Assembly: GCA_025499705.1 (NCBI GenBank)
Contig: JAFMVE010000010.1
Coordinates: 62,001 to 126,000, forward strand
Origin: Carboxylicivirga caseinilyticus
GTDB taxonomy: Bacteria; Bacteroidota; Bacteroidia; Bacteroidales; Marinilabiliaceae
DNA length: 64,000 nt
Direction of reading: 5' to 3'
The translations under genes and the position numbers were made by a program. Every line of letters begins with the position of its first letter. Position 1 is the first letter of the stretch. The notes beneath the pieces were generated by a model. It was not told where the DNA came from. It made no database searches and worked only from the letters and a program-made list of their open reading frames with translations. Below, piece by piece: positions 28,369 to 40,291 of the stretch.

Positions 28369-31245
28369 ATGCATATGCAACTAATCCAAATCAAACGTAT
28401 TGCAGTAATCTTTCTTTATTTGATAATATCCATAACTATTATTTACGCTCAAAAGGAGAATATATTGGTTACCGGAACAATGACTGATAGCAGTGGAGAA
28501 GCCATCCCTGGTTTATCAGTTACTATTGATGGTACAACAGAAGGAACGATAACGGATGTAGAAGGAAATTATCAGATTAAAGCTCCCCTGGGCTCAACGC
28601 TTGTTTTCAGTTTTATTGGTATGAAAACAAAGAAGGCCATTGTTACACGAACAGGCTTGAATCCTGTTGGAAGCAGAATGATTATACCCTTTAACCACAT
28701 AAAAGAAGATACCCGATTTGTACGGGAAGAAGAAAGGAAGGCATTGAGTGATTCGGCAAAGGTTGCTGACAGATATAAATACTATCGCGAATATCTGTCA
28801 GATTCAGCAATTGTTGAAAGTTATGACCGGATTAACACGACTGCTTTAGAAATTAATTCAAACCGTATTGAACGCCAGATTAGGCGATACAGTAACCTGT
28901 ATGGTGAAAGAAATTATCGATTGGGAAAAATAGTTGTGAAATCAAATTTTGCATTTGACAGGGTTGCCCGCTTACCAGAACTTCAGACAAAATATGCACA
29001 AGGAAGACCATTGAATGGTTTGCTAACTTATCAAGGTCCTTCAACAGGTGAGATGTTCTCATGGGGACCTCCACTGGTAAATCTTGAATATGATGGGATT
29101 GCCACTCCAGATGATGTCAGGGGTTCGTTGGTTGCTAAAGGCGATGGTAATGGAGAGTCAGCAATAGTATCTGATCCAACCAATATTTTCAAAACTGGTT
29201 TTACTAATTCGTATGATATTGCATCCTACCATACATTAGGATCTGTATATATTGATGTTGGTTACCGATACCTACTAAGTTCAGGAGTACTGCCGGGTGA
29301 GGATATCCAAAGTCATCGTTTTAATGCAAAGCTGGATTGGAACGATCGGATAAAAGCTAATGTAATTTATCACACTTCAAAAGATAATTTCCGTGATGGT
29401 ATTATGAAATCACGAATTCTTTCAACAACTTATCTTACTCCGGTTTCGTTTGATAATAGTTTTGGTTTGTCAGCCAAGGATGCACAAAGAGACCAGTCAG
29501 TAATTTATCATCCGGATGGTTCAATACGGAGTGCGTCTCCTACACATCTTGATAACCCTTATTTGTTTGTACAGAAAGGTGTCGACAGAAATGAACATCA
29601 GTCATTGTTGTATAATGTCGATTTTGAGGAAAACTGGTCAATGGGACGAATAAAAGCAGATTTTTCCGGTCAATATTCTGAAAATCAACGAGAGTTAAAA
29701 TTTCCAGAAGGAACTGTAGGAAATTTAGGTGGAATTAATAGTAATCGGAATGATAAAGCTGTTAATTATTTTGCTGGTGCATTTGTAGAGAATTATTTAT
29801 TTGGATATCAGTTTCGATTCAATATTCCCATAAGAGCCGAGTTTTATAATTATAATAGAGAACTTGCCGTAAACAATTCTGAATTTGTGAATAATAAACA
29901 GGTAAGGAACATCTTTACAGCAAATCCAACATTGCAATACTCACGGAACTATGATGATATTTTAGTGGCAAAAGCGGGTCTTAATATTTACGCTTCTTCA
30001 ACAAGTGACAAAGTATATTACAGGCCTAATTTTGACGTATCATTTTCTCCTTTCATTTGGTTTGATCGTACTTTTTATTGGAAAACACAAAATGTTTTTC
30101 AAAGTTTTAAACTGAAGCTTGATTATGTAAGCCAGGTGAACGAGTATATCCTTGATTACCGCGCTGGTTTGAATAATTCACTTGCATATAATGTAGCTGA
30201 CTTTAATCGTTATTTCGAAGACCAGGAAATCAATGTTCACACTTCAATTCAACCCGAGATTGTTTCGAAGCTTGATTTTAGTATTACATCAAGCTTTATA
30301 AATGGAGCACTTCAGTCAACTACCTCTTTTTATTGGAATCGTCGTCGCAACTGTATTTTTCCTGTTTTAAATAATGATGAATTGGTTTTTGAAAATTTAG
30401 GGGATATTAAGGTTAATGGCTGGGAAGAAACCTTATCTGCCCGCATATTGGATAATTCTTTTAAATGGGATGTGAGTTTAACGATGTCACAGATCAAATC
30501 AAAAGTATCAAAAAGTAAATACGAGGCACCAGTTACACTGGCTGGTTTTGCTGATGTGCATACGGCTTTTGTGAAAGATCATAGTCCGGGTGTAATAATG
30601 GGCAATAGCTGGCTTAGAAATACGGAAGGAAAGAAAGTGATAGGGGCTGATGGATTTCCATTGGTTGATTTTTCTCCTTCGGTACTTGGTGATCCCAATC
30701 CAGATTTTTTCACTGGGCTGTCCAATGAGTTTTCTGTTAATGGAATGGAATTTGGCTTTACTCTGGATGCTGTTATTGGGGGTGATGTATGGAACGGAAC
30801 ACAGGCTACCCTGGATTATTACGGTGTATCACAAAAAACGGCAGATGAGCGGGAGATTAGGAACTACATTTTTGATGGAGTTAATCAGAATGGAGAGGTA
30901 AATAATAAACTGGTTTCGTTTGCTCCCGATGATGGATCAGTTGCAGATAACCGATGGGTAAGATATGGTGTTACTGGCGTTGCTGAAGATTACATTCAGG
31001 ATGGTTCACGACTGGTATTGAAGGAATTGTATTTTACTTACAACTTCAATGTTAACACTGTTAAACGTTGGGGATTGGAAAATCTTTCAATAACAGCTAT
31101 TGCCAATAACCTGGTTACTTTATCCCGTTACAAGGGTAATCTGGCTTCCAACACCTTATGGGGACATAGCAATACCATGGGGCTCGATTATTTCAACAGT
31201 CCGCAGATAAGACGCTATGGATTAACGCTACAAGTTACATTTTAA
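28369..31245 (+). CDS. SusC/RagA-like outer-membrane beta-barrel protein lacking the plug domain
   Basis: 958 residues. After a signal peptide (IAVIFLYLIISITIIYAQ) comes a carboxypeptidase-regulatory-like domain (about 30-100: VTGTMTDSSGEAIPGLSV, GTITDVEGNYQI). In a normal SusC-type receptor the TonB box and plug follow. Here there is instead ~80 residues of charged, helix-prone sequence (REEERKALSDSAK and on), then directly the SusC barrel start (GKIVVKSNFAFDRVARLPELQ, GEMFSWGPPL, IFKTGFTNSYDIASYHTLGS) and strands to the C-terminal aromatic ending (YGLTLQVTF). No SusD gene is next to it. The neighbour 24 bases downstream encodes the missing TonB-box/plug unit inside an alpha-2-macroglobulin-like protein. 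Confidence 0.85.
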   Translation: MHMQLIQIKRIAVIFLYLIISITIIYAQKENILVTGTMTDSSGEAIPGLSVTIDGTTEGTITDVEGNYQIKAPLGSTLVFSFIGMKTKKAIVTRTGLNPVGSRMIIPFNHIKEDTRFVREEERKALSDSAKVADRYKYYREYLSDSAIVESYDRINTTALEINSNRIERQIRRYSNLYGERNYRLGKIVVKSNFAFDRVARLPELQTKYAQGRPLNGLLTYQGPSTGEMFSWGPPLVNLEYDGIATPDDVRGSLVAKGDGNGESAIVSDPTNIFKTGFTNSYDIASYHTLGSVYIDVGYRYLLSSGVLPGEDIQSHRFNAKLDWNDRIKANVIYHTSKDNFRDGIMKSRILSTTYLTPVSFDNSFGLSAKDAQRDQSVIYHPDGSIRSASPTHLDNPYLFVQKGVDRNEHQSLLYNVDFEENWSMGRIKADFSGQYSENQRELKFPEGTVGNLGGINSNRNDKAVNYFAGAFVENYLFGYQFRFNIPIRAEFYNYNRELAVNNSEFVNNKQVRNIFTANPTLQYSRNYDDILVAKAGLNIYASSTSDKVYYRPNFDVSFSPFIWFDRTFYWKTQNVFQSFKLKLDYVSQVNEYILDYRAGLNNSLAYNVADFNRYFEDQEINVHTSIQPEIVSKLDFSITSSFINGALQSTTSFYWNRRRNCIFPVLNNDELVFENLGDIKVNGWEETLSARILDNSFKWDVSLTMSQIKSKVSKSKYEAPVTLAGFADVHTAFVKDHSPGVIMGNSWLRNTEGKKVIGADGFPLVDFSPSVLGDPNPDFFTGLSNEFSVNGMEFGFTLDAVIGGDVWNGTQATLDYYGVSQKTADEREIRNYIFDGVNQNGEVNNKLVSFAPDDGSVADNRWVRYGVTGVAEDYIQDGSRLVLKELYFTYNFNVNTVKRWGLENLSITAIANNLVTLSRYKGNLASNTLWGHSNTMGLDYFNSPQIRRYGLTLQVTF

Positions 31246-31268
31246 CAACTTACCTAAACCTGAATAAT

Positions 31269-34200
31269 ATGAAAGCATATAAATATCTGACTCTTATAAT
31301 ACTATTGCCGCTTCTTACTGGATTATTTTCGTTTACCGGAATTGATGAATTGTTTATTGGTTTTTTGAAGAAGCGTCTGGTAGAATTTAATCTGTACTAT
31401 CCTGTTGAGAAGGCATATCTGCATACTGATAAAACATTTTATAAGCCGGGCGATGATATCTGGATTTCCGGTTATTTGGTCGATGGGATTACATACGAGG
31501 CATCAGAAATCAGTACAGTTCTTTATATCGAGCTAATCGACCCTAAAGGTTCTGTTTCGCAACGTAAGAAGTTTATGGTAAAAAATGGCCAAAGCAAGGC
31601 TCATTTATTTCTGCCTGAAAATGCCCCGGGTGGACTCTATCATTTGAAAGCTTATACTCGTTGGATGCAGAATTTTGGAGAGAAGTTGGTTTTTGAAAAG
31701 AAGTTACAGGTTCAGAACATCATCAAGCCTAATCTATTATCGGTTCTTGATTTTGAAAAAGAAGCGTATGGAGCCGGAGACACTGTATCTGCCAGTATCA
31801 ATATTCGTGATTTACAAAATCAACCTGTTGCAAACAGGCAATTGAGTTTTTCTGTAATGCTTAAAGGAGCAGAGTTTAAAAAGGATATTGCCTTAACTAA
31901 TGATGAAGGGAATGCGAGCATTCAGTTTATTCTTCCGGATAAGCTAAATTCATCAGATGGAGTTTTAAATGTTGTTTTTAGTTATAAAGGTCGTAACGAA
32001 TCAATATCTCGATCAATACCGATTGTATTAAATGTAATTGATTTACAATTTTTTCCTGAGGGAGGAGATGCTGTTGAAATGTTACCATGTCATATGGCTT
32101 TTAAGGCCCTGAATGAGTTTGGGAAACCAGCCGATGTTGAAGGTGAGATTAGAGATAGTAAAGACAAATTGATTAAAACATTCGCAAGTTTTCATCAGGG
32201 TATGGGTGCATTTGATTTTGTTCCTGATTCAAATGAAACTTACAGAGCTATTGTTTTAAAACCTGCTGGCATACGAAAGTCGTTTTATCTTCCAAAACCA
32301 GATGCTGAAGGCTTTGTGCTTCATCTGAATAGAAGAGAAGGCGATGAATATAAATTTTCGATTTACTCTAATGTAGAGGAAAAAGTACACATAGTTGTAC
32401 AAGCCAGAGGTGAAATTTTGTACACCCAAAGCAGAATGCTTAAAAAAGGTAAGATCACCGAAAACATCAGGCTTGATAAGAAACAGCTTTCAGGTGTGGC
32501 ACAAATAACTGTTTTTGATGATTTTGAAAGACCTTTGGCAGAGCGACTCTTTTATGTATTTCCTGAAAACAAACTCAGTATTGATATAACTACTGATAAA
32601 ACAACGTATGCCCCGCGTGATAGAGTTAAGATGTCGATGAAAGTAAGGGATCAAATGGGTGAACCTGTATCAGGTAATTTCTCTCTGGCTGTTGTGGATG
32701 ATAAAATTGTGACTTTTGCTGATGACAAACAGGATAATATCTTGTCGTATTTATTGTTGTCGTCCGAAGTGAAAGGAGAGATTTATGAGCCGTCTTTTTA
32801 CTTTAATCCTGAAAAAGAAAAGGCAGCTGAAGCGATGGATTATTTACTGCTTACACAAGGCTGGAGAAGGTTTGTGTGGAAGGATGTCCTGGAGCTGGAA
32901 AAGAAAAGCCTAACTGAAGCTGAACGATATGATCGGGTATCAGGCAGAATCGTAAACTCATACGGTAAGGGTGTTAAGTCACGGGTAATAGTGATTGATA
33001 ATGAGAACAGGAAATACTCAAAAATCATAACCAACGAAGGGGGACGATTCTCAGTATCAGGTCTTGATAATTATAATTATCTGCAGATTTTTGCAAAATC
33101 CTTAGATAGAAAGAATAAATACGTTAATATAAACATTAGTCAGTCAGTTAATAATGTAGTAAATCGTTCTGTGGTTTCTCCAACCATCTTTGGAACTGCA
33201 CAAGTTAATGCATTGATTTCAGAAACCCGGAATGTTAATAACTCCATGAAGATGGAAGAGGAGTTCATTGAAGACTCAGAGGTTATTGTTTCAGCATCTG
33301 AACAGAAACGTGTTTCAGCGGCTTGGTCGATGGAGGAAGATGCTGTCGCTCTGGATGAAGTGGTGACTATTGGCTATGGTACTCAACGGTCTTCAAGTGT
33401 AACAGGAGCTGTTACATGTATCAGGGCCGAAGATTTAAACAGAGTAAGTTCAGATGTAAATTATGCCTTGCAAGGGCAAGTTGCCGGGGTACAGGTCATT
33501 AATGGATCAGGTGCTCCCGGGGCTAATTCATCCATAATGATCAGAGGTGTGTCTTCTGTATCAGCAAATAATGCTCCTCTGTATGTGGTTGATGGAATTC
33601 CTGTAACTGATGTGAATAATATTAATTCCAATGAAATAGATAAAATCGAAGTCTTAAAAAGTGCTTCTGCATCTGCTATTTATGGTTGCAGGGGGGCAAA
33701 TGGAGTTATTTTTATAAATACCAAAAAAGGTAATTACGGTCATTATTACAGGCAACGTAAATATTCACGAAAAATGGCTCAGAACTTTGTATCAGGTGGC
33801 TATCATTTTGAAAAAGTGAAAGAATTTTATGTTCCTCGTTATGGTAATAAAGAATCAAAGGGATTTGACAAGCGCGAGACGGTTTATTGGAATCCGTCGA
33901 TAACAACTGATGAGAATGGGAATGCTGAAGTTGAGTTTGTGAATACTGATGAAGTTACCACTTTCAGAGCCACCGTGGAAGGAATTGGTAATAATGGATT
34001 GATTGGGCGAACAGAAGGTTTTTATTCCGTTCAAAAGCCTCTGCAAATGGAAGCAAAAGTACCTCCATATGTAACGTTTGAGGATGAAGTAGAAGTGGCT
34101 GTTTTGATAACCAATAATACAGAAAACAGTATTGAAGGGGAATTAAAAGTTGATTATCCACAATCATGGAATATAAAGGATCAGCCAGTATCTATTGTGG

Positions 34201-35930
34201 AAGTTGATTCAGAGTCTTTTAAAGAAGTGATTTTGAAGTTTAATGTAGGCTCCAAAACGGGTAAAGATAGTTTGAGCTTCAGCTTTGGTAATGAGCAATA
34301 TCAAACAGAACTAGTGGCAGAGACCAACATTGTAAGCAAAGGTTTTCCTGCTGAGATGTCTTACTCATCCAGAGCCATCCAAACAGAATTCAGTTTTGAT
34401 TTATCCTCAGCTGTAAATAAGAGTGAACATATGAGCATTTCGGTTTATAATAATGTTTTAGCCGAAGTGATGGATGGAATTGAGTCGGTGATCCGTCAGC
34501 CACATGGATGTTTTGAACAGGCCAGTGCTTCCACCTATCCGAATGTGCTCATTTTGAAATATCTTGAAGAAACAACTAATGTTGATGCGGAACTGAGAGC
34601 TAAAACCATAAAATTCATTGATGAAGGTTATAAAAAACTAGCTGGTTATGAAACAAAGGAGAACGGTTTTGAGTGGTTTGGAAAAACACCTCCACACGAA
34701 GGGTTAACAGCTTTTGGGTTGATGGAATTCTACGATATGAAGCAGGTATACAATGGTGTGGATGATACAATGTTGAAACGAACCATTGTATGGCTGTTAA
34801 GTAGAAAAAATGGTAAAGGTGGTTTTGATACTAATAAGGGAAAATATGGTTTTTCAGGTGCTTCTGATGAGGTAAGCAATGCATATATGGTTTATGCTTT
34901 TTCTGAGGTAGGTCTTCCGATTAAGGATTATGAAGCTGAGTTTACCACGGCTTTTGAAGAGGCTATGAGAAGCAAAGATGCATACCGTATGGCCTTGATG
35001 GCAAATGCTTGTCTGAATAGAAAAGATCAGGCAAAAGCTACACAACTCATAGATTATATCATCAAGAAGCTTCAAAAAGGAAGAGTAGAAGATTTAAAAT
35101 CCAATCATTCGATAGTTCGATCCTGGGGTAAATCACTTCAGGTTGAAACGGCAGCTCTTTCGGCTATGGCATTGATGAAAAACGGTGATGAGTATTTTAC
35201 GGAGTTACTTACGTTAATGGACTATATTTTGGGTGCACGTAGTTTTGGAGGTTTTGGATCCACACAGGCAACGGTGCTTTCCTTGAAAGCCATTACGCAA
35301 TATGCAGGCATTGTAAATAAGATGCCTGAGAACGGATCATTAGTGCTTAAGATAAATAATAAGGAGATGCTGACACGCAAAATTAGTGCTGAGGATAAAT
35401 TAATTATTCTGGATAGTCTTGAACAGTATCTGTCATCAGGAGTGCAAACATTTAATCTGGAGTTTAAAGGAGTCAGGAATCCACTTTCGTTTACGGCTAA
35501 TGCCCAATGGATGCAAACAGTTCCTGTTTCATCAGAGAAATGTAAGGTTCAGTTGAAAACTAACCTGATGAAATCGGAATGTGAGATAAATGATCTGGTT
35601 CGTTTATCGGTTCAGCTGAAGAACAAAACCAGATCGGGCTTACCCATGACAATCACTATGGTGGGTATTCCATCAGGATTATCAGTTCAGCCCTGGCAAC
35701 TGAAAAAAATGCAGGAAGAGAATGTATTTGATTATTACGAAATACATCAGAATTACCTTGTTTTGTATTATCGCGAAATGCCTTCGTCTGTTGTTAAAAC
35801 AATTAATCTTGATTTAAAAGCCGAGGTGGCTGGTACGTATACCGCTCCGGCAAGTTGTGCCTATTTGTATTACACCAAAGAACACAAAGACTGGCAAAAG
35901 GGTGAAGAAATTAAAATAACCAATCCGTAA
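31269..35930 (+). CDS. Alpha-2-macroglobulin-like protein with inserted TonB-box/plug domain
   Basis: 1553 residues with an N-terminal signal peptide. MG-type domains start with VEKAYLHTDKTFYKPGDDIWISG (about 40-62). A carboxypeptidase-regulatory-like domain is at about 560-625. At about 693-822 there is a complete SusC-type TonB box and plug: LDEVVTIGYGTQRSS, ALQGQVAGVQVI, ASAIYGCRGANGVIFI. The A2M region resumes at FYVPRYGNKE, and the thioester domain carries an intact CxEQ site in PHGCFEQAS (Cys about 1081). A2M proteins trap proteases covalently; a plug occludes an outer-membrane barrel and contacts TonB. Together with the plug-less barrel upstream this suggests a two-part complex at the outer membrane. 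It ends at a strong terminator. Confidence 0.88.
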   Translation: MKAYKYLTLIILLPLLTGLFSFTGIDELFIGFLKKRLVEFNLYYPVEKAYLHTDKTFYKPGDDIWISGYLVDGITYEASEISTVLYIELIDPKGSVSQRKKFMVKNGQSKAHLFLPENAPGGLYHLKAYTRWMQNFGEKLVFEKKLQVQNIIKPNLLSVLDFEKEAYGAGDTVSASINIRDLQNQPVANRQLSFSVMLKGAEFKKDIALTNDEGNASIQFILPDKLNSSDGVLNVVFSYKGRNESISRSIPIVLNVIDLQFFPEGGDAVEMLPCHMAFKALNEFGKPADVEGEIRDSKDKLIKTFASFHQGMGAFDFVPDSNETYRAIVLKPAGIRKSFYLPKPDAEGFVLHLNRREGDEYKFSIYSNVEEKVHIVVQARGEILYTQSRMLKKGKITENIRLDKKQLSGVAQITVFDDFERPLAERLFYVFPENKLSIDITTDKTTYAPRDRVKMSMKVRDQMGEPVSGNFSLAVVDDKIVTFADDKQDNILSYLLLSSEVKGEIYEPSFYFNPEKEKAAEAMDYLLLTQGWRRFVWKDVLELEKKSLTEAERYDRVSGRIVNSYGKGVKSRVIVIDNENRKYSKIITNEGGRFSVSGLDNYNYLQIFAKSLDRKNKYVNINISQSVNNVVNRSVVSPTIFGTAQVNALISETRNVNNSMKMEEEFIEDSEVIVSASEQKRVSAAWSMEEDAVALDEVVTIGYGTQRSSSVTGAVTCIRAEDLNRVSSDVNYALQGQVAGVQVINGSGAPGANSSIMIRGVSSVSANNAPLYVVDGIPVTDVNNINSNEIDKIEVLKSASASAIYGCRGANGVIFINTKKGNYGHYYRQRKYSRKMAQNFVSGGYHFEKVKEFYVPRYGNKESKGFDKRETVYWNPSITTDENGNAEVEFVNTDEVTTFRATVEGIGNNGLIGRTEGFYSVQKPLQMEAKVPPYVTFEDEVEVAVLITNNTENSIEGELKVDYPQSWNIKDQPVSIVEVDSESFKEVILKFNVGSKTGKDSLSFSFGNEQYQTELVAETNIVSKGFPAEMSYSSRAIQTEFSFDLSSAVNKSEHMSISVYNNVLAEVMDGIESVIRQPHGCFEQASASTYPNVLILKYLEETTNVDAELRAKTIKFIDEGYKKLAGYETKENGFEWFGKTPPHEGLTAFGLMEFYDMKQVYNGVDDTMLKRTIVWLLSRKNGKGGFDTNKGKYGFSGASDEVSNAYMVYAFSEVGLPIKDYEAEFTTAFEEAMRSKDAYRMALMANACLNRKDQAKATQLIDYIIKKLQKGRVEDLKSNHSIVRSWGKSLQVETAALSAMALMKNGDEYFTELLTLMDYILGARSFGGFGSTQATVLSLKAITQYAGIVNKMPENGSLVLKINNKEMLTRKISAEDKLIILDSLEQYLSSGVQTFNLEFKGVRNPLSFTANAQWMQTVPVSSEKCKVQLKTNLMKSECEINDLVRLSVQLKNKTRSGLPMTITMVGIPSGLSVQPWQLKKMQEENVFDYYEIHQNYLVLYYREMPSSVVKTINLDLKAEVAGTYTAPASCAYLYYTKEHKDWQKGEEIKITNP

Positions 35931-37996: not shown

Positions 37997-40291
37997 ATGA
38001 AACTAAAGATTAATCACAGGCTCATTTATTTATTCCTGTTTCAAATAATAGCAGGTTCCTTCTGCCGGATCAATGCTCAAGTTGCACCGGTTGACAAAAC
38101 ATCATCGCCTTATTTCATTGTGTTATCAGAAGATAAAGAAACAGATCAGCTGCCATTAAAATCAACTACAGTTGATGTTGATATCACTGGTGTCATAGCA
38201 AATGTTAAGGTGCATCAGGAATACAGTAATAATGGGGAAAATACACTGGAAGCTATTTACGTTTTTCCGGCCTCAACAAAGGCTTCTGTTTATGAAATGA
38301 AGATGAAAGTGAATGACAGGGTGATCAATGCTATTGTGGAAGAAAAAGGTAAAGCAAGTGATATGTATAAGAAGGCTCGCAAAGAGGGTAGAATAGCTTC
38401 TCTTCTGCAGGAGGAAACACCCAATGTATTCCGGATGAAAATAGCGAATATATACCCACGAGCAAAGGTTGAAGTTGAATTGAATTATACCGAATTACTT
38501 TCGCCAGAAGGTGGAGTTTATGAGTTTGTTTATCCAACTGTTGTTGGTCCCCGATATGCTAATGATTTAAATAAATCAGACAAATCAGATAATTGGGTTG
38601 CTAATCCTTACCTGAAATCAAGTGTTTTACCTGTGTCAGATCTAAATTTGAAGATAACTCTTAATGCCGGTATTTCAATTAAAGATATAAAGTGTGACAC
38701 GCATAAAAATAAGATAGATTTTAAAGATCCATCTACAGCAACCTTGAACATGTTGGACTTAAAAGGTGGAAACAGAGACTTTATAATGCAATATCGTTTA
38801 GCAGGTAAAACAATTGAATCAGGCATAATGCTCTATGAAGATCCTAAGGGAGAAAATTATTTTCTGGCAATTATGCAACCTCCTCAACGTGTGTTACCAA
38901 CAGAGTTAACCCCCAGAGAGTATATTTTTATTGTTGATGTTTCGGGTTCTATGAATGGTTTTCCACTTGATGTTTCAAAATCGTTGATAAAAAAACTGCT
39001 CCTTCAGCTTAAGGAAACAGACCTGTTTAATATCGTTTATTTTGCGGGGGGATCTGAGGTTTATTCAAAGGAATCGGTTTTGGCATCAAAAGAAAATATT
39101 GTTCAGGCATTAACTTTTTTGGATCAGAAAAATGGTGGAGGTGGTACAGAGCTACTTCATGCACTGGAAGAATCAATGGGATTGAATTCTAATGAAGGTT
39201 ATTCACGTTCTTTTCTGATTTTTACAGATGGATATGTGAATGTTGAGAAAGAAACATTCAAATTTATTGAAACTAACCTTGATCAATCCAATTTCTTTGC
39301 CTTTGGAATAGGTACAAGTGTAAATCGTTATGTTATTGAAGGAATGGCTCATGTAGGATGTGGTGAGCCTTTTAAAGCAATTAATAAAGAAGAGGCGGAA
39401 TTGGCTGCAGATCGTTTCATTAACTATGTTTCTCAACCTGTTCTAACTGATATTAAATATCATTTTGAAGGAATTAATACTTATGATTTAATTCCTGAGA
39501 AGATGCCTGATTTATTTGCTGAACGACCCCTGGTAATTTGTGGTAAATATAAAGGAGAAGCAGCTGGCAAACTAGATATCAATGGTAAAACGGGTAAAAA
39601 GGAATTTAAAGGAATATTAAAATTTGAGAAAAGTAGTAATGCTGATAATACCTCTTTAAAGTATTTGTGGGCAAGAGAGAAAATCCGCTATTTGTCGGAT
39701 TATAATAAATTGAACTACGACGATAAATTAAAAGAGGAGCTTATTTCGCTTGGAAAGAAATATAATCTATTAACTGAATACACATCATTTATAGCCGTTG
39801 ATGAGGTTCAATCCATTGAAAGAGAAAGTCAGATTACAATTAGACAACCTCTTCCTTTACCCGATCGAGTTAGTAACTTTGCAGTTGCAAGCAATCTGGT
39901 TGTTTTAAATGATTGCGAATTAGATGAGGAATTAGAGTTTTATGATACAGATAGTTCTGAAGATTTTTCTGTTCACGTATTTCAAATTATTGAAAAGATG
40001 CCTGAATTTCCAGGTGGGGAAGCTGCTCTGAATAATTTTATCACCAGCAATATTCAATTTCCTGAGAGTGCAGCCGAAAATGGTATAAGTGGAACCGTTT
40101 ATGTTAGTTTTACCATTGATGTGGATGGATCTGTTACTGATGTAAAAGTACTAAGAAGTGTTAGTAAAGAACTGGATGAAGAGGCTATGCGAATCATTAA
40201 ATTAATGCCAAAATGGTCTCCGGGGGCACAAAGGGGTAAATCTGTTAAGACTAGTTTTACGGTTCCTGTTAGATTTACTCTTGATCAATAA
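37997..40291 (+). CDS. Secreted VIT-VWA protein with C-terminal TonB domain
   Basis: 764 residues. The N-terminal hydrophobic segment (LIYLFLFQIIAGSFCRINAQ) looks like a cleavable signal peptide. A VIT domain spans about 35-165 (VDVDITGVIANVKVHQEYSN, RMKIANIYPRAKVEVELNY). A VWA domain is at about 305-475 with the MIDAS motif DVSGS near 314 and TDGY later. The last ~100 residues are a TonB C-terminal domain (MPEFPGGEAALNNFI, GTVYVSFTIDVDGSVTDVKVLRS, PGAQRGKSVKTSFTVPVRF). VIT-VWA proteins are adhesion-type surface or periplasmic proteins; the fused TonB domain would contact a TonB box. It is the third gene nearby carrying part of the TonB transport apparatus. Confidence 0.88.
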   Translation: MKLKINHRLIYLFLFQIIAGSFCRINAQVAPVDKTSSPYFIVLSEDKETDQLPLKSTTVDVDITGVIANVKVHQEYSNNGENTLEAIYVFPASTKASVYEMKMKVNDRVINAIVEEKGKASDMYKKARKEGRIASLLQEETPNVFRMKIANIYPRAKVEVELNYTELLSPEGGVYEFVYPTVVGPRYANDLNKSDKSDNWVANPYLKSSVLPVSDLNLKITLNAGISIKDIKCDTHKNKIDFKDPSTATLNMLDLKGGNRDFIMQYRLAGKTIESGIMLYEDPKGENYFLAIMQPPQRVLPTELTPREYIFIVDVSGSMNGFPLDVSKSLIKKLLLQLKETDLFNIVYFAGGSEVYSKESVLASKENIVQALTFLDQKNGGGGTELLHALEESMGLNSNEGYSRSFLIFTDGYVNVEKETFKFIETNLDQSNFFAFGIGTSVNRYVIEGMAHVGCGEPFKAINKEEAELAADRFINYVSQPVLTDIKYHFEGINTYDLIPEKMPDLFAERPLVICGKYKGEAAGKLDINGKTGKKEFKGILKFEKSSNADNTSLKYLWAREKIRYLSDYNKLNYDDKLKEELISLGKKYNLLTEYTSFIAVDEVQSIERESQITIRQPLPLPDRVSNFAVASNLVVLNDCELDEELEFYDTDSSEDFSVHVFQIIEKMPEFPGGEAALNNFITSNIQFPESAAENGISGTVYVSFTIDVDGSVTDVKVLRSVSKELDEEAMRIIKLMPKWSPGAQRGKSVKTSFTVPVRFTLDQ

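Follow-up and report, generated by a model that had tools for sequence, protein, structure and literature searches.

A SusC model divided between two adjacent genes

The DNA considered here, a stretch of 64,000 nucleotides from Carboxylicivirga caseinilyticus (contig JAFMVE010000010.1, positions 62,001 to 126,000; hereafter the window), contains two adjacent genes on the forward strand, the first of which encodes a SusC/RagA-like outer-membrane barrel protein without a plug domain and the second, 23 bases further on in the list of open reading frames, a protein of the alpha-2-macroglobulin (A2M) type. A first-pass annotation made from the sequence, which put the spacing at 24 bases, had described the pair as a split TonB-dependent receptor, in which the barrel lacks a plug and the neighboring A2M carries a TonB box, a plug, and the thioester motif GCFEQ; Pfam and the SusC model TIGR04056 both agree with this description. 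The two genes divide the 981 positions of TIGR04056 between them nearly end to end: the barrel gene covers positions 2-63 and 212-981 and the A2M gene 70-211, with no overlap and with positions 64-69 alone left out. When the genome was searched with this model, 38 other matches lay above the cut-off, 36 of them starting at model position 1-3, and the resulting list holds no second adjoining pair with complementary coverage.

The barrel protein

TIGR04056 aligns residues 187-958 of the barrel protein to model positions 212-981 with a score of 178.9 bits, under the cut-off of 368.25, and the match to positions 2-63 was added by the genome search. The first-pass description depended on there being no complete plug in this protein, and profile searches bear it out: Pfam gives no Plug match at E <= 0.1 in the window protein or in any of 33 plug-less barrel proteins, and a plug hidden in the barrel gene is excluded by these results together with a plug profile of our own, applied to 41 barrels. 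An N-terminal extension resembling CarboxypepD_reg is present in 32 of the 33 barrels, as is a match to TIGR04056, and the distance from the extension profile to the barrel profile has a median of 97 amino acids (range 92-127) in 40 barrels. The AlphaFold2 model of the window protein has a mean predicted local distance difference test score (pLDDT) of 84.6 and a predicted template modeling score (pTM) of 0.74; the exception to this confidence is the linker, with pLDDT < 50 at residues 110-119 and 127-184. The best Foldseek matches of the model are the SusC chains of 5fq6 and 5fq7, and 5fq6 (SusC BT2264) comes first (E 7.4e-44, TM 0.66).

The macroglobulin-like protein

The Pfam Plug family PF07715 matches the window A2M with 65.5 bits (cut-off 23.9), the SusC signature TIGR04057 scores 50.7 bits against 46.2, and TIGR04056 aligns residues 687-825 to the model from position 70 to about 211 (Table 1). 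The closest named relatives of this A2M belong to Marinilabiliaceae (Plebeiobacterium, Carboxylicivirga, and Labilibacter), with 61-65% identity in the C-terminal part. Among A2Ms with a full plug, of which 46 were collected as described below, 30 were aligned, comprising the window protein and loci from the related-locus search only. All 30 contain TIGR04057 (E <= 0.001), the Plug, thioester (TED), MG2, and A2M domains of Pfam, and, without exception, the motif GCFEQ. The remaining A2M domains are detected less regularly, the receptor-binding domain PF07677 at E <= 0.001 in 13 of the 30 and the bait-region domain PF07703 in 5, the match of the window protein to the latter falling below the cut-off. 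A strict TonB-box pattern occurs in 41 of the 46 full-plug A2Ms, and in the remaining five a near variant can be seen by eye; the real box is looser than this pattern, which matches just 8 of 34 ordinary SusC plugs, because many of these start with a residue other than L.

The plug lies between the part of the A2M that holds the bait-region domain and the part that holds the A2M domain. The profile match to human A2M starts at chain residue 727, which corresponds to profile position 837, about 40 positions past the plug, and the bait region of human A2M, which we take to span approximately residues 690-728, lies just before it; the plug and its linkers, modeled with low confidence, therefore stand at the bait site. 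Compared with the best-matching ordinary SusC plug, the plugs of thioester A2Ms show 34-55% identity, mostly above 40% (48 ordinary plugs, most of them from the genome of the window), as continued contact with a SusC barrel and TonB would predict. A model of the A2M fragment 354-1553 has a pLDDT of 70.3 and a pTM of 0.42, and its best Foldseek matches are human A2ML1, CD109, and A2M.

Table 1. Positions in the window of the two genes and of their domains and motifs (residues refer to the respective protein).
Feature	Position	Strand	Evidence
Plug-less SusC/RagA-like outer-membrane barrel protein, 958 amino acids	28369..31245	+	Pfam, TIGR04056, AlphaFold2 model, Foldseek
CarboxypepD_reg-like N-terminal extension of barrel protein, residues 34-94	28468..28650	+	PF13715 E 5.6e-13; TIGR04056 model 2-63
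Charged linker, residues 95-186, mostly low-confidence helix, in place of TonB box and plug	28651..28926	+	no Pfam match; low pLDDT
SusC-type barrel, residues 187-958	28927..31242	+	TIGR04056 model 212-981
A2M-like protein with TonB box and plug, 1553 amino acids	31269..35930	+	Pfam, NCBIfam
MG2 domain, residues 48-129	31410..31655	+	PF01835 E 4.1e-17
Weak A2M bait-region domain match, residues 358-480	32340..32708	+	PF07703 17.9 bits, under cut-off 22.7
TonB box LDEVVTIGYG, residues 695-704	33351..33380	+	motif
SusC-type plug, residues 693-822	33345..33734	+	PF07715; TIGR04057; Plug search of own genome
Pfam Plug part of A2M plug, residues 709-813	33393..33707	+	PF07715 E 7e-18
A2M domain, residues 871-960, after plug and linker	33879..34148	+	PF00207 E 1e-10
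Thioester domain (TED), residues 1057-1345	34437..35303	+	PF07678 E 1.6e-26
Thioester site GCFEQ, residues 1080-1084	34506..34520	+	motif
A2M receptor-binding domain, residues 1460-1540	35646..35888	+	PF07677 25.7 bits, cut-off 21.7

Conservation of the pairing

Related A2Ms were sought in 295 genomes of the order and, with the C-terminal half of the protein as represented by an alignment of 8 plug-bearing and 3 plug-less relatives, in one collection of species genomes, from which the best 80 of 448 relatives were taken. The resulting 94 loci, which include two duplicates (L045/L106 and L046/L136, each on the same contig), were examined with our own profiles of the plug, the N-terminal extension, the barrel, and two parts of the A2M. 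In every testable thioester-A2M locus the full plug and the plug-less barrel occur together or are missing together. A plug-less barrel gene lies directly upstream on the same strand in all 41 full-plug A2Ms for which 2.5 kb or more of upstream DNA is available, and upstream of none of the 37 A2Ms without a full plug to which the same requirement applies; one of these 37 (L070) is a frame-broken gene whose true upstream region is off the contig, which leaves 36 clean cases. Outside this count are 5 full-plug loci near contig ends and 11 loci without a full plug (2 of them the duplicates) that have too little upstream DNA. The gap between barrel and A2M genes has a median of 5 nucleotides and ranges from -152 to 356, the two largest being those of L040 and L061 (A2M start broken).

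Apart from the A2M and the barrel, any neighbor family is common to 8 of the 41 loci at most, which rules out an operon with further constant partners. A one-off assembly artefact is likewise ruled out by the recurrence of the pair at 41 loci, and since all of these share the pair while their further neighbors differ, the arrangement is more than chance. Named strains with the pair include members of Aquimarina, Kordia, Winogradskyella, Psychroserpens, Chryseolinea, and Labilibacter.

The converse search used a profile built from 33 of the 41 plug-less barrels. In 395 genomes of the phylum it gave 20 barrel matches at E <= 1e-120; four, including that of the window, are plug-less and all four have the A2M directly downstream, while none of the 16 barrels with a plug of their own is followed by an A2M within 1.5 kb. 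In 397 genomes of one family, that of G315, which is taken to be Flavobacteriaceae because its pairs fall among named members of that family in the barrel tree, 26 matches at E <= 1e-150 comprise 13 complete plug-less barrels, one that is cut by a contig end, and 12 with their own plug. An A2M follows each of the 14 plug-less barrels and, within 1.5 kb, none of the 12 others. A search of the same 397 genomes for the A2M (E <= 1e-100) returned 14 matches, all with a full plug, of which 13 adjoin a plug-less barrel by their coordinates and the 14th (G877) adjoins a shorter, diverged one of 806 amino acids. These multi-genome searches scored two candidates per genome, so that orphans could be missed; the phylum and Flavobacteriaceae counts overlap (2 of the 13 plug-less and 1 of the 12 plug-bearing barrels, with G315, G382, and G520 in both draws), and some of the Flavobacteriaceae genomes may represent the same species as loci from the species collection. 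The earlier statement that the missing and the extra module match each other is thus upheld both by the complementary coverage of TIGR04056 and by the pairing, at 41 of 41 against 0 of 37 loci and at 14 of 14 in Flavobacteriaceae.

The plug-less barrels of Dokdonia pacifica (L127:5107-7515, 802 amino acids) and of G877 (L239:5649-8069, 806 amino acids) are shortened, missing two stretches of the barrel profile, and still adjoin a plug-bearing A2M, and the open reading frame of the barrel at L063 starts within the barrel, its N-terminal part lying outside the view.

Evolutionary history of the pair

In a tree of barrel proteins, 44 plug-less barrels form one clade (SH-aLRT, an approximate likelihood-ratio test of branches, 100) apart from 24 ordinary barrels; a 45th plug-less row, L164, is an ordinary SusC gene of the genome of the window with an in-frame stop. 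The tree of A2Ms, from which two duplicates and one short piece were excluded to leave 91 of the 94 loci, likewise separates almost every plug-bearing row from those without a plug. The exceptions are the long-branched, plug-less L110 and L138, placed weakly among the plug-bearing rows, and the plug-bearing L039, which stands beside the plug-less group. A single ancient origin of the pair, which now spans Flavobacteriales, Cytophagales, and Bacteroidales, is likely from these trees. In the tree of the plugs themselves, A2M plugs and ordinary SusC plugs are intermixed and poorly resolved. Repeated swapping of plugs between A2Ms and SusC proteins was considered and led nowhere, a single clade of A2M plugs not being rejected by the approximately unbiased (AU) test (p-AU 0.106; based on 79 of 100 plugs, after rows that were long or near-identical had been dropped by name).

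Motifs resembling the TonB box occur in 8 of 42 A2Ms that have no full plug, against a mean of 0.67 and a maximum of 4 in 500 shuffles. These apparent leftovers fit a history in which an ancestor with a plug lost it, short of proof. TonB-box-like motifs or plug traces are found at the usual site in L106:595-5079, L110:7064-12124, L122, L124, L136, and L138; the traces amount to half a plug in L106 and to remains recognizable by eye in L110 and L138. A2Ms that retain such a motif without a full plug may still bind TonB.

Location of the A2M and proposed mechanism

The window A2M begins with an ordinary signal peptide in which no lipobox is seen by eye, and of the 43 full-plug A2Ms whose start can be seen, 33 have no cysteine at residues 13-30. 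The NCBIfam matches of the window protein and of the 30 aligned A2Ms include no type IX secretion tail. In TonB-dependent transporters, the plug enters the barrel from the periplasm. As neither a lipobox nor a type IX tail was seen and plugs enter from that side, the A2M is most likely periplasmic and situated beneath the pore, and the surface capture that the first-pass annotation had suggested finds no support. The protease trapping that it also suggested may be coupled to the pore, as a hypothesis.

The best explanation of the pair, to which we assign a probability of about 0.72, is a two-polypeptide TonB-dependent receptor in which the A2M plugs the barrel in trans. The plug of the periplasmic A2M would enter the barrel from below and close the pore, and TonB, binding the box, would pull the plug out and open it. 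The pull, or a cut near the plug at the bait or trigger site, could then change the shape of the A2M and arm the thioester, which would covalently bind, beneath the pore, whatever had passed through it; this last step is the least certain of the series, and the odds are against it. The fuller proposal, that this is an ancient natural two-subunit receptor whose gate is a complement-like thioester protein, fired by the TonB pull or by cutting at the pore so as to tag or trap entrants covalently, would make it a macroglobulin triggered by force or by entry; it is likewise less likely than not.

Individual steps have precedents. Passages of PMC4498604 state that cutting of the bait region arms the thioester in E. 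coli A2M, and passages of PMC7782687 report that in the SusC protein Bt1763, whose Ton box is DEVVVTG, the whole plug can leave the barrel; in the same passages its authors consider this expulsion non-physiological and yet suggest removal of the plug by TonB. Separately made cork and barrel of FhuA have been studied in E. coli, as mentioned in part of PMC2615193 (citing Braun et al., 2003). Both cases speak for the feasibility of trans plugging.

Contrary evidence and alternative explanations

Several observations weigh against a receptor plugged in trans or limit the evidence for it. Most of the association derives from a single ancient clade, which makes the 41 loci fewer than 41 independent events, and the 80 loci taken from the species collection were those most like the window A2M. 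In the A2M model, residues 626-768, a stretch that starts ahead of the TonB box and runs into the plug, have pLDDT below 50, and the block means over the rest of the plug are below 60; the plug is thus under 60 throughout, and the model lends no support to an intact plug fold. The thioester motif is altered to GCFMQ in one full-plug A2M, L044 (1 of 8 plug-bearing rows in another alignment; the upstream DNA of L044:218-4963 is absent from the contig). The half plug of L106 has no barrel in view, on a contig with just 594 nucleotides upstream.

Coevolution between plug and barrel was also not apparent. In a mirror-tree comparison of 35 pairs (the 41 minus L127 and L061 gave 39, from which near-copies were removed), plug and barrel distances correlate with r 0.397 and, with the rest of the A2M held fixed, with a partial correlation of 0.015. 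The windows that cover the plug have the lowest raw correlations with the barrel along the protein and are among the lowest in partial correlation. The rest of the A2M correlates with the barrel at r 0.945, which could come from shared descent alone. We take the missing signal to reflect strong constraint of a general kind on the plug; another possibility is that the plug has partners beyond this barrel.

The remaining points against the receptor come from plug-bearing proteins without a TED. Such MG2 proteins, of 835-975 amino acids and frequent in the search of the order (seven loci, L051-L057), follow the domain order of the A2M up to the plug and end shortly after it; of six that were scanned, four score above the cut-off of Pfam Plug and the other two give no match to it. 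Across the seven loci the same place holds a plug or, by eye, the remains of one. A plug-less barrel was seen neither in the seven neighborhoods of 12-20 kb, where an ordinary plug-bearing barrel gene lies downstream in L056 and L057 (at approximately 1.4 and 4.2 kb), nor in 12 genomes with TED-less MG2 proteins that were searched with the barrel profile (E <= 1e-30). Six of these genomes gave barrel matches, all in frames of ordinary size (1041-1213 amino acids), and the other six gave none. A plug in a macroglobulin (MG) protein thus need not always have a plug-less barrel. The first-pass annotation had counted a regular occurrence of plug-bearing A2Ms without such a barrel as evidence against the split receptor; none was found among the testable thioester A2Ms, and in this part its expectation stands, while among the TED-less MG2 proteins it fails.

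Of the alternatives, the one that survives best holds that the pair is an anchor and not a transporter, the plug docking the periplasmic A2M to the outer membrane by way of a closed barrel, in place of the lipid anchor of the enterobacterial protein, with TonB unused or needed for assembly only. It is a possible reading, if a doubtful one, and it has in common with trans plugging that the plug sits in the barrel, so the probabilities of the two overlap. The strictness of the pairing would suit an anchor, as would the lack of a constant transport partner, other neighbor families reaching 8 of 41 loci at most (no separate search for SusD was made), and the 33 of 43 A2Ms without a cysteine at residues 13-30 have no lipid anchor there, unlike the A2M of E. 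coli (ECAM), described as anchored in the inner membrane. A mere anchor would have no need of the TonB box, kept in its strict form in 41 of 46 proteins, and a large SusC-type barrel would be a costly one.

An improbable second alternative is that the plug stays out of the barrel altogether and serves the A2M and MG2 proteins as a TonB-binding or structural module with other partners, the barrel being an open or self-closed pore of other use. The TED-less MG2 proteins, which keep plug-like domains without a plug-less barrel, the absence of a coevolution signal between plug and barrel, and the persistence of TonB-box-like motifs in 8 of the 42 A2Ms that lack a full plug (against a mean of 0.67 in shuffles) all lean in this direction, but it leaves unexplained both the co-occurrence of barrel and full plug at every testable thioester-A2M locus and the near end-to-end match of the lost and the gained segments. 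A shuffled domain or a split gene of no functional meaning, retained through chance and hitchhiking, would agree with one probable origin and is hardly credible for a pair that has been kept in Flavobacteriales, Cytophagales, and Bacteroidales at A2M identities near 40% with thioester and TonB box conserved.

Relation to known systems

The window barrel has the fold and the N-terminal extension of SusC/RagA transporters (TIGR04056; BT2264 in 5fq6, BT1763, RagA), and the TonB box and plug are of the same type as theirs but stand on a neighboring gene, with the TIGR04056 score under the cut-off. It also differs from these transporters in its surroundings: no SusD is found among four other neighbors scanned (a sulfatase, a histidine kinase, a CobB-like protein, and a VIT-VWA-TonB protein), no dedicated SusD search having been made, genome-wide or otherwise, and no further neighbor is constant. 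According to three papers (PMC11658791, PMC5413942, PMC7782687), a single chain normally holds both plug and barrel in TonB-dependent transporters, and whether, on opening of the pore, the plug partially unfolds or exits completely is undecided. The FhuA cork and barrel on separate chains are a laboratory construct, whereas the pair of the window is natural and its plug is set within a thioester protein.

With A2M, complement C3, CD109, and the thioester-containing proteins (TEP) of animals, the window A2M shares MG domains, a TED with GCFEQ, and a receptor-binding domain, and the A2M profile scores animal proteins much higher (A2M 160 bits, CD109 145, TEP1 127) than the A2M of Salmonella or E. 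coli (47). The animal proteins differ in that the window A2M carries a SusC TonB box and plug, at the site of the bait region. The enterobacterial proteins (ECAM/YfhM and Salmonella A2M) are likewise bacterial thioester A2Ms; ECAM is described in passages of PMC4498604 as anchored in the inner membrane and often encoded in an operon with pbp1C, whereas the window A2M has a barrel neighbor and by eye no lipobox. The TED-less MG2-plug proteins of Bacteroidota have in the same order an MG part, a weak carboxypeptidase-like domain, a TonB-box-like motif (by eye), and a plug, and are set apart by the missing thioester domain, a diverged plug, and the lack of any plug-less barrel found with them.

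No description of a macroglobulin-plug and barrel pair was seen in the titles and the beginnings of abstracts among the literature matches listed, subscription papers and preprints lying outside that search, and the pair is real and conserved, a probable two-gene receptor that is apparently undescribed. If this is true, complete and reversible exit of the plug would become directly testable in a natural receptor whose plug is on a second protein, and bacterial macroglobulins would gain a place and a trigger, with an animal-type thioester protein seated where an outer-membrane pore opens inward. The named strains that carry the pair should make it workable.

Neighboring genes and other observations

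Approximately 2 kb downstream of the pair, at 37997-40291 (+), lies a gene for a protein of 764 amino acids with VIT and VWA domains, resembling inter-alpha-trypsin inhibitor, and a C-terminal TonB domain (PF03544, E 7.7e-22). Its link to the pair is doubtful, as further neighbor families each recur in 8 of the 41 loci at most.

Among the loci of plug-less A2Ms, a divergent neighbor family is present in 9 of 37, the sole member scanned (L080:6284-7132, -) being sigma-70-like, and a second neighbor family in 7 of 37, the sole member scanned (L121:4157-5734, -) containing tetratricopeptide repeats and a weak zf-HC2 match. An Ignavibacteriae A2M of 1786 amino acids (L084:4333-9693) has an anti-sigma-type zf-HC2 domain at its N-terminus in the same frame (37.4 bits, cut-off 22.2) and, by eye, a plug-like stretch in mid-protein. 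In the genome of the window, two partial TIGR04056 matches, C54:103-1359 (positions 3-404) and C86:48413-50173 (positions 396-981), may be genes cut by contig ends, and an ordinary SusC gene at C51:109365-112418 contains a single in-frame TAG.

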